This document shows positions 9,959 to 12,762 of a stretch of 34,332 nucleotides of DNA, piece after piece (position 1 is the stretch's first letter; each line of letters starts with the position of its first letter). Origin of the DNA: an uncultured Lachnospiraceae bacterium (GTDB lineage Bacteria > Bacillota > Clostridia > Lachnospirales > Lachnospiraceae). The DNA is taken from the NCBI GenBank assembly GCA_947630085.1, contig CANRGP010000017.1:1-34332 (forward strand), in the 5' to 3' direction. Position numbers and translations under genes: made by a program. The notes under the pieces are model-generated. The model ran no database searches and was not told where the DNA came from. It saw only the letters and a program-made list of their open reading frames with translations.

Positions 9959-10828
9959 CTACTGCATGAAAATACTTGCGATCGGCGAGTCCGCCGGCAG
10001 GATCAGTGTGTTGCTGCTGCCGGTCAGAGAAGCCCTCGCCGCCTCCAGCGACCTGGTAAACGCATAGAATTCCGCCCGGTCCTCCGTGCTGTATGCATCC
10101 GCCAGGATCCTCATGTATTCTGCCTCCCCCTCGGCCGTTACCGCAGCGGCCTGGGCTTCGGCGTTTGAGATGTTGATGGCAATCTCGCGGTCGGTCGTAT
10201 TGCGGATCACCTGGGCCTCGGATTTTCCCTCCGCGGTAAAAGTAGCCGCGATCTTGTCGCGCTCGGAAATCATTCTTTCATAAACGGCTTCTTTATTGTC
10301 CGCCGGCAGATCCAGCTTCTTTGTCTCCACCGCCAGAAGGCTGATGCCGTACTGATCCACGCTGGTTCCGATGTTTTTCATGATCGCTTCGGAGAGCTCG
10401 CCGTCCCGGCCGCTGATCACCTCGTTCTGGCTCAGGCTGCTGATCACATTCTTGATGGAGTTATAGACCACGGCGTCGATCCTGCGCTCCGCGTTGGTCA
10501 CGGAGGAGTTCAGCGTCTGAGCAAATTTTAGCGGATCCGTGATCTTCCACAGCACATAGCTGTCGGTCAGCATGGTTTTTTTGTCCATCGTGATGACGTC
10601 CGACGGCGCGAGGTCATAGATCAGGATCTCCCTCGGCAGCGTATCCGCCGTCTGCACAAAAGGAACCTTAAAGGATATGCCGGCCGTGTCGATGATCCGC
10701 TCCACACGTCCGAACTGGCGGATCAGCTTATATTCATTTTCCCTTGTGACGACCAGAGAACTGCATAAGGTCACAACCGCCGCCAGTATGATGATGATTG
10801 CAGCTGCTTTTGATATTGTCTTTTTCAT
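9959..10828 (-). CDS. hflC: SPFH/band-7 protein, HflC
   Basis: N-terminal TM then SPFH domain: VVTRENEYKLIRQFGRVERIIDTAGISFKVPFVQTADTLPREILIYD. Paired with hflK. Confidence 0.88.
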   Translation of the reverse strand: MKKTISKAAAIIIILAAVVTLCSSLVVTRENEYKLIRQFGRVERIIDTAGISFKVPFVQTADTLPREILIYDLAPSDVITMDKKTMLTDSYVLWKITDPLKFAQTLNSSVTNAERRIDAVVYNSIKNVISSLSQNEVISGRDGELSEAIMKNIGTSVDQYGISLLAVETKKLDLPADNKEAVYERMISERDKIAATFTAEGKSEAQVIRNTTDREIAINISNAEAQAAAVTAEGEAEYMRILADAYSTEDRAEFYAFTRSLEAARASLTGSSNTLILPADSPIASIFMQ

Positions 10829-10867: not shown

Positions 10868-11218
10868 TTATCCCTCTGTCTTTTTTTCTTTTCCTCGATA
10901 TTTCTTCTCGATGACCAATGTATACACACACATCGCCGCGATCGTCGCGGCCATCACGCCCGGCACGCTCACCAGTACGATCAGCGGGGAATTCTGCCCC
11001 GCCAGAAGCGGCAGCCCCAGCAAGATAAATGCAGCGCCGTAAACAGTCCACAGCTTTCCAAGCGCACGGTTGTAGCCCTTCACGTCGTCCACCGCAAATG
11101 TCTCCGCGTTCGCCCAGAATCCCAGCGGCTTCTTCGCAAACAAGCTGAAAATGCCGATCCCGATAAACACCGCGCCGCAAACCGTCCATAAAAAGAATCC
11201 GAGAGCCGTTCCTTTCAT
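10868..11218 (-). CDS. Small membrane protein of unknown function between hflK and hflC
   Basis: MKGTALGFFLWTVCGAVFIGIGIFSLFAKKPLGFW...; predicted three TM segments. Start at 11218 (internal Met of the 11242 ORF). Confidence 0.75.
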   Translation of the reverse strand: MKGTALGFFLWTVCGAVFIGIGIFSLFAKKPLGFWANAETFAVDDVKGYNRALGKLWTVYGAAFILLGLPLLAGQNSPLIVLVSVPGVMAATIAAMCVYTLVIEKKYRGKEKKTEG

Positions 11219-11244
11219 AGCGTTTTCCTCCGCACAGTGCACGG

Positions 11245-12261
11245 TTATTCCGCGTTTCCTTCGCCTGCGCCGGTGCTTCCCGCCGCGGCCGCGTTTCCGC
11301 TGCCGGTGCCTGCGCCCGTGGTAGCTGTGAAGCTGTCAAGCGGCAGGATCGTCTCCGTTCCGTCGGTCCCGTCGATGATCACCTTCATCCGGGGCAGCAC
11401 ATCCTCCATCGTCTCGTAGAACATTCTGCGGCGGGTCACCTCCGGATTCTTGACATACTCCTCATACATGGCGTTAAATATGGCCACCTCCGCGTTCGCC
11501 TCGTTGATGCGCTCGGTCTTCTGCGCCTCGGCCTCCTGCATGATCTTGTCGATCTGCGCCTCCGCTTCCGGAAGCTTCTCGTTGCGGTACTTATTGGCGT
11601 CGTTGACGGCCGTCTCCTTTCCCTGGCGCGCCGTCTCCACGGCCTTAAAGGCTTCCATGACTTCTGTTGTCGGCGGCTCGGAATCCTGGATCGTCACATT
11701 CATCACCTGCAGGCCGATGTCATACTGCTCCAGCTTTTCCGCGATCTGCTCCCGCACTTTCGACTGGATCTCATTCTTCCCCGTGGTCAGCACCGAATCC
11801 ACATCGTAGCTTCCGATCACGCTCCGGATGCAGCTGCGGCTGATATTCTGCAGGATCAGCAGCGGATCCTCGGACGCGTAGACCGCTTTCACCGGATCGG
11901 ATACTTTGTATTCCACGAAGAAATCCACATTGACAAAATTGTAATCGCTGGTGATCATCAGGGAGTCGTCCTCCTGACTTTCATTGCTGCTGGGATCATA
12001 GCCGATGGCGAATCCCTGGATGGTGGTATTGACCTTCTGCACTCTCTGGATCAGCGGGATCTTAAAATGCAGTCCCGGCTCCGTAACGCTCGTGGCTACG
12101 CCAAAGGTAGTCAGCACTGCCTGCTCCTGCTCCTCGATATTATAAAACGAGTTCAGAACAAGGATCAGCGCGGCAATCCCGCAGACGGCGATCAGTCCGC
12201 CGCGCCCCACTTTTTTCATGGTACGCTTCATTTTTTCTTTCATCTCATCATAGACTTCCAT
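11245..12261 (-). CDS. hflK: SPFH/band-7 protein, HflK
   Basis: 338 aa; TM followed by YNIEEQEQAVLTTFGVATSVTEPGLHFKIPLIQRVQKVNTTIQGFAIGY. Confidence 0.88.
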   Translation of the reverse strand: MEVYDEMKEKMKRTMKKVGRGGLIAVCGIAALILVLNSFYNIEEQEQAVLTTFGVATSVTEPGLHFKIPLIQRVQKVNTTIQGFAIGYDPSSNESQEDDSLMITSDYNFVNVDFFVEYKVSDPVKAVYASEDPLLILQNISRSCIRSVIGSYDVDSVLTTGKNEIQSKVREQIAEKLEQYDIGLQVMNVTIQDSEPPTTEVMEAFKAVETARQGKETAVNDANKYRNEKLPEAEAQIDKIMQEAEAQKTERINEANAEVAIFNAMYEEYVKNPEVTRRRMFYETMEDVLPRMKVIIDGTDGTETILPLDSFTATTGAGTGSGNAAAAGSTGAGEGNAE

Positions 12262-12550
12262 TCTTTTCCACCTTTCTTCATGTGATCTGCGCCGGACCTG
12301 TCCGGGTCACGGCAATTTTTCTGTGTCACAGATTCCGCGCATCTTCCCCCGCTCCCTTTATCCGCGTAAGCGTCCGCGCATCCGCAAGAGTTCCCGGCGT
12401 CCTTCCTATACCTTCCTTCATCATACCACGGATCCGCCAGAATTCATACACCAAATGCGTCCCCGGGCAGAATCTTGTATCCCGCGGCGCATTCCGTCCC
12501 GCCAATCCGAGCCGAGCGTTTTTTATCCCGCGGGATGATCTCCCGGCGGA

Positions 12551-12597
12551 TAAAAAAAGACCTTTACTGACGCCGATATGGCTTCAGTAAAAGTCTT
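12551..12597 (-). terminator. Intrinsic terminator (expression platform) of the riboswitch
   Basis: AAGACTTTTACTGA...TCAGTAAAGGTCTT (14 bp, one wobble) followed by TTTTTTT on the minus strand. Confidence 0.88.
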
Positions 12598-12682
12598 GCA
12601 ATCTCACAAGCAGATGCGGATAGGTTCCTATCGTCCTGACGTCGTCTGCTCACCGTTTCCGGTGTGCTACTCCCTCTTACGT
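12551..12682 (-). ncRNA. Probable yybP-ykoY (manganese) riboswitch with intrinsic terminator
   Basis: Minus-strand RNA GUAAGAGGGAGUAGC-ACACCGGAAACGGUG-...-GUCAGGACG...-UUGCAAGACUUUUAC-UGAAGCC...GUCAGUAAAGGUCUUUUUUU. It has the GGGAGUAGC and GCAAGAC signature segments; P1 GUAAGAG/CUUUUAC shares its 3' strand with the terminator stem. Confidence 0.8.
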
Positions 12683-12689
12683 TGTCCCC

Positions 12690-12718
12690 ACTATAGCACG
12701 GACCGGATCATTTGTCAA
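12690..12718 (-). promoter_or_regulatory. Strong sigma-A promoter, TTGACA-17-TATAGT, for the riboswitch transcript
   Basis: tgtcaa (12713-12718) and actata (12690-12695) on the + strand; 17-nt spacer. Confidence 0.85.
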
Positions 12719-12762
12719 GATGTTTGTTAAAAAATTATCGTTATCAATTTAACAAGCATCTG

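Follow-up and report, generated by a model that had tools for sequence, protein, structure and literature searches.

A yybP-ykoY-type riboswitch that probably controls hflK and hflC in an uncultured Lachnospiraceae bacterium

Known yybP-ykoY riboswitches sense manganese and turn on metal exporters. In a 34,332-nt stretch of DNA from an uncultured Lachnospiraceae bacterium (contig CANRGP010000017.1; hereafter the window), an RNA with the hallmarks of this class lies upstream of hflK with no transporter gene in between. The locus raises the question of whether a metal-sensing switch has come to govern HflKC, an SPFH-type complex of membrane quality control, or whether the RNA was left behind by an exporter gene that has since been lost. 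To our knowledge, the role of SPFH complexes in bacteria and the signal that calls them are largely open, and a manganese-class riboswitch that repeatedly precedes hflK and flotillin genes would provide a testable signal for them.

Architecture of the hflK locus

The earlier note had described a minus-strand promoter (TTGACA-17-TATAGT) and the hallmark sequences of the yybP-ykoY class, GCAAGAC among them, and all of these are present where the note had placed them. The -35 (TTGACA, 12718-12713) and -10 (TATAGT, 12695-12690) hexamers are separated by a 17-nt spacer and match 11 of 12 consensus bases, while shuffles of the region hold 0.3 promoter-like sites on average. The RNA starts near position 12684 on the minus strand, and its aptamer spans about 106 nt. 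In transcript order it comprises GUAAGAG-GGAGUAGC, a GNRA-capped P2, a P3 arm with CGUCA, GCAAGAC-CUUUUAC and an intrinsic terminator (Table 1). The sequence GGGAGTAGC (12674-12666) occurs only once in the window, with 0.18 occurrences expected. The fold of 12546-12690 has a z-score of -4.5, and none of 200 shuffles was equally stable. The P4 segment UUGUGAGAU could form a CUUG/CAAG hairpin; this hairpin competes with P3.1 and was no part of the structure as modelled. As a side observation, GATAATTTTTTAACAAA (12722-12741, minus strand) lies just 5' of the -35 hexamer and is kept in 9/9 genus loci, with GATA...TTAACAAA invariant; this conserved block may be a UP element or a repressor half-site.

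The hflK start codon lies at 12261, 290 nt 3' of the T-run, and no open reading frame with supporting evidence was found in this gap. The placement of hflK about 290 nt downstream without an intervening transporter, as the earlier note had it, therefore holds, with the hflK product scoring above the cut-off of its curated model. The leader is longer than the 40 to 130 nt that usually precede transporter genes in the same locus set. It contains an extended -10 (TGTGGTATGATG), for which no convincing -35 was found upstream of hflK; the element is a real caveat, as it could allow metal-independent transcription of hflK. The leader (12262-12550, minus strand) also keeps GAACTCTTACGGAT, the palindromic CGCGNACCATGGCGCGG occurs in the hflK leaders of relatives, and AACTCTTACGG recurs 3' of the terminator in another genus (L057).

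Table 1. Features of the hflK locus, listed in transcript order (R3 is the covariance model described in the text)
Feature	Coordinates	Strand	Evidence or remark
Sigma-70-type promoter, TTGACA-17-TATAGT	12690..12718	-	Consensus scan; -35 and -10 kept in genus alignment
Putative yybP-ykoY-type (Mn2+) riboswitch aptamer	12580..12685	-	R3 model match and covariation
P1 (switch helix), 5' strand GUAAGAG	12674..12680	-	7 bp, pairs with CUUUUAC at 12587-12593
L1, 5' strand GGGAGUAGC	12666..12674	-	GGGAGUA in 79/79 family and 24/24 RF00080 loci
P2 hairpin CACCG-GAAA-CGGUG	12651..12664	-	Double changes in 5/5 pairs
P3 arm: P3.1 GCAGA/UCUGC, L3, P3.2 GAUAG/CUAUC	12610..12649	-	Covariation
L3 motif CGUCA	12637..12641	-	Invariant in 36-sequence alignment
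GCAAGAC (12599-12593) and P1 3' strand CUUUUAC	12587..12599	-	AGACUUUU invariant in 36 sequences
Intrinsic terminator, 5' arm AAGACUUUUACUGA includes P1 3' strand	12552..12597	-	Fold and T7; stem 12597-12557, T7 12558-12552, -23.1 kcal/mol
Possible second promoter, extended -10 TGGTATGAT	12420..12428	-	Between terminator and hflK; 6/9 genus loci
hflK, first gene behind the riboswitch	11245..12261	-	TIGR01933, 237.7 bits (cut-off 159.4); Band_7
Gene for 124-aa protein between hflK and hflC	10868..11242	-	No Pfam family; same place throughout genus
hflC	9959..10828	-	TIGR01932, 163.7 bits

Class assignment of the RNA

The Rfam covariance model of the class (RF00080; gathering score, 45 bits) gave no match in the window or in its genome at any threshold tried, a result that the earlier note had named as refuting its class call. 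Among 249 genomes of the phylum, the same model found a match in 50 and exceeded its cut-off in 7, and within the family it matched one of 60 genomes, weakly. With so few of the 249 genomes above the cut-off, the miss is a test of the Rfam threshold more than of the class. Because RF00080 misses nearly the whole family, the Rfam scan was dropped as sole arbiter and replaced by reciprocal covariance models. R1, built from eight genus sequences found by DNA search, gave 82 matches in 70/397 family genomes. R2, built from a 36-member family-wide alignment of relatives of the window element, recovered 24 of 25 RF00080 loci in register. R3 was built from 24 RF00080 loci alone (the sequences are all RF00080 matches, and the alignment was made through R2) and matched the window element with 54.6 bits (E = 1.1e-13). 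As far as sequence comparison reaches, these reciprocal matches settle that the window RNA is a yybP-ykoY aptamer, in a clade that Rfam misses; the class call is upheld by the R3 match despite the silence of Rfam. The RF00080 model thus overlooks a large clostridial clade of the manganese riboswitch.

The proposed structure is supported by covariation. In the 36 sequences, 97.5% of base-pair cells are kept and both sides have changed in 15/21 pairs, a level that 0 of 500 shuffles reached; the alignment was fitted to the structure, and slid controls fall to 37 to 52%. P1 cells are paired in 98.8% of cases, and double changes occur in 5/5 pairs of P3.1 and 3/4 pairs of P3.2. RNAalifold, run on an alignment that mixed in the two degenerate sequences, gave a structure lacking P1, which was set aside. 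The features of class membership that were found include GGGAGUA in L1, the 3' RAGAC strand, the L3 discriminator adenosine (here in CGUCA, in the class also in CAACA), covarying P1, P2, P3.1 and P3.2 helices, and a terminator with a shared strand. A cation transporter gene behind the RNA, which is usual for the class and does not define it, is absent from the window locus. An L3 motif of the CGUCA kind is present in 78/79 family loci. In the Xanthomonas oryzae riboswitch, A48 contacts Mn2+ through N7 and is the manganese discriminator adenosine (PMC6754395); A12637, the last A of CGUCA in the window, aligns with A48 and is kept.

A folate or SAM riboswitch was also considered, with metF and metH lying downstream, and was rejected: no Rfam family matched, and in relatives the RNA stays with hflK as metF moves away. 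Three family loci gave weak matches to another Rfam family, SSRC10 (RF02617, Streptococcus sRNA 10), which is filed as a small RNA (L075, 35.4 bits; L062, 33.4 bits; L061, 26.7 bits), and the window element itself gave no match to it. SSRC10 is probably a manganese-riboswitch leader in its own right and may have been misfiled.

Linkage to hflK and other targets across the family

The earlier note had proposed examining relatives for the riboswitch-hflK linkage, and the linkage proved to be conserved both within the genus and in roughly a dozen other genera of the family. A DNA search of the genus located the RNA in ten further species, two of them diverged (G012 matched twice, the second time through the opposite arm of the one terminator). 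The RNA of about 106 nt is near-invariant, with an intact aptamer, across nine species of the genus, and hflK lies directly behind it wherever the contig reaches far enough. The congeners G020 and G021 keep the promoter and terminator and have lost the GGGAGUA core, G020 also lacking the discriminator adenosine; R3 found no match in either leader, and their aptamers are apparently degenerate or re-specified. These leaders (L010:1466-1571 in G021 and L011:1493-1599 in G020) also keep the 3' half, with an otherwise identical 3' block of about 35 nt. Nine other close congeners carry hflK without such an RNA. The two broken aptamers and the nine congeners lacking the RNA suggest that riboswitch control of hflK is evolutionarily optional or dispensable. 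A linkage to the upstream epimerase gene was discarded, as G020 and G021 keep hflK with different upstream genes.

A census of targets scored the first gene behind 79 family loci outside the genus. SPFH genes follow 17 of these loci (12 HflK, 4 flotillin-like and 1 other Band_7), which gives a binomial p below 1e-28 against an assumed background of roughly 2 to 5 SPFH genes per genome, the loci not being independent. The same RNA clade also precedes the expected cation pumps and exchangers: the other targets were P-type ATPases of the Ca/Mn type (19), OadB (8), CNNM/CorC (2), an Na/Ca exchanger and a few singletons, and about 25 of the 79 loci encode an uncharacterised protein of about 145 amino acids, YccF or both. 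Outside the genus, the hflK linkage was found in 11 family genomes' worth of loci with R1 and, with R2, in G416, whose locus came from those fetched as controls. The leader is present in about one-tenth of the 130 family genomes with hflK, and its distribution on the HflK tree takes 9 gains or losses to explain, of which well-supported branches force at least 6.

Several genomes hold more than one copy of the switch. One (G451) has copies before hflK, flotillin and YccF genes, and another (G520) before genes for a P-type ATPase, HflK and YccF. The window's own genome carries a second yybP-ykoY-type riboswitch with its own terminator (G000:C6:3769-3898; locus L186, element near 2001-2130), and the exchanger gene behind it (2206-3147 of L186) is of the Na/Ca type (PF01699). 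Copies that precede different targets in one genome, including the exchanger copy in the window's genome, point to a regulon rather than a relic. We put at about even the chance that this is a Mn2+-induced membrane-maintenance regulon of a clostridial family, which would join exporters with several scaffold and quality-control proteins of the membrane, namely HflKC, a flotillin-like SPFH protein, YccF and the uncharacterised four-helix protein, sometimes in one genome. Outside the family, the loci read from a class-wide sample had ATPases, OadB and exchangers behind them and in no case an SPFH gene, so the SPFH branch of the regulon may be family-specific.

The protein of about 145 amino acids follows the riboswitch at L056, L076, L078, L104 and L126 and at some 20 others of the family loci, usually with YccF next and sometimes with an ABC ATPase gene. 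It matched no Pfam or NCBIfam family and nothing in the PDB at E below 0.001, and it is predicted to form a four-helix bundle (pLDDT, 78). The gene oadB, for the beta subunit of an Na+-translocating decarboxylase, lies directly behind the riboswitch at L061, L063, L086, L100, L105, L113 and L132, and at L160, L161, L163 and L172 among the class loci. Its recurrence as a target in many clostridial genomes has no obvious manganese rationale.

Switch mechanism, alternatives and known systems

The 3' strand of P1 forms part of the 5' arm of the terminator in 76/79 family, 11/11 genus and 24/24 RF00080 loci, so that P1 and the terminator are mutually exclusive. Both the strand sharing and the ON-switch layout that the earlier note had read from it are thus borne out by the family. 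The antitermination (ON) layout is established for the Lactococcus lactis switch (PMC11087558). We consider it probable that the window element, as a member of the yybP-ykoY (Mn2+) class, works as an ON switch of transcription and controls hflKC by read-through. At high Mn2+, which we infer to be the ligand, L1 would dock on L3 and stabilise P1, and the CUUUUAC strand would be withheld from the terminator. With the terminator blocked, RNA polymerase would read into hflK, the gene of the 124-aa protein and hflC, and more of the HflKC complex, which controls the FtsH membrane protease, would be made. At low Mn2+ the terminator would form, and the riboswitch promoter would yield a short RNA only. 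The placement of the switch suggests that membrane quality control is turned on at high manganese in these bacteria, presumably so that membrane proteins or translocons are protected when metal is in excess.

Three other readings deserve weighing. A variant of the class might sense another ion, such as Ca2+ or Mg2+, in which case SPFH, OadB, CaxA and YccF would make up the regulon of that ion. Breaker and colleagues expect that there may be variants with other ligands, given that yybP RNAs precede some genes inconsistent with Mn2+ sensing (PMC7266159); the clade is distant enough from RF00080 for Rfam to miss it, and among its targets are Na/Ca exchangers as well as subunits of Na+-pumping decarboxylases. 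However, the discriminator adenosine, CGUCA and L1 are unchanged, and ATPases of the PMR1 type (Ca/Mn) occur in the same clade, so that we regard a change of ion as unlikely. A chance resemblance of some unrelated structured leader or small RNA to a metal riboswitch, which the lack of any RF00080 match at the thresholds tried might suggest, is highly improbable: reciprocal covariance models join the two families, and the same class of RNA precedes known kinds of Mn/Ca transporter.

The RNA could also be the relic of a lost exporter gene, as the earlier note had allowed, or a stand-alone terminated leader, with hflK transcribed from its own downstream promoter only. The 290-nt gap with its conserved extended -10 and the degenerated aptamers of G020 and G021 would fit such a history, but a sequence of 106 nt that is near-invariant in nine species, independent recurrence before hflK and SPFH genes behind 17/79 family loci would not. 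Because the linkage recurs and a second copy precedes an exchanger gene in the same genome, the relic finds no support, and we hold it to be quite unlikely. Between the two alternatives of the earlier note, gene context and conservation favour metal-controlled SPFH/HflKC over the lost exporter.

The RNA itself is of a known kind; what seems to be new is its recurrent placement ahead of genes for SPFH scaffolds. In the literature searched, no paper joins yybP-ykoY with HflC and none appears to link hflK to a riboswitch; the tables of Dambach 2015, Price 2015 and Martin 2019 may already mention SPFH genes, so priority is uncertain. The window RNA shares the P1/L1/P2/P3/L3 layout, CGUCA and the P1-terminator strand with the L. 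lactis and X. oryzae riboswitches of RF00080 known from structures (PMC6754395, PMC11087558). It differs from the RF00080 riboswitches in falling below Rfam detection, in preceding hflKC instead of a cation transporter gene, in a P4 shrunk to an unpaired or weak segment and in an L3 3' strand of CCGY, not YGGY. By the curated models TIGR01933 and TIGR01932, hflK and hflC are orthologues of the genes of the Escherichia coli HflK-HflC SPFH complex; unlike hflK-hflC of E. coli, the window operon has the 124-aa gene in between and a riboswitch leader.

A physiological parallel exists in Bacillus subtilis, where FtsH becomes essential in the absence of the TerC proteins MeeF and MeeY and where meeY (ykoY) is itself under a manganese riboswitch (PMC10550928). 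This dependence of TerC-deficient cells on FtsH provides a precedent for a manganese-FtsH link, and a manganese riboswitch regulon widened beyond transport would fit it. In B. subtilis, as proposed for the window, the physiology of a manganese riboswitch is tied to FtsH-dependent membrane quality control. The B. subtilis riboswitch has a TerC metal exporter as its target, and the link to FtsH is genetic, whereas in the window the genes behind the switch are those of the FtsH modulator.
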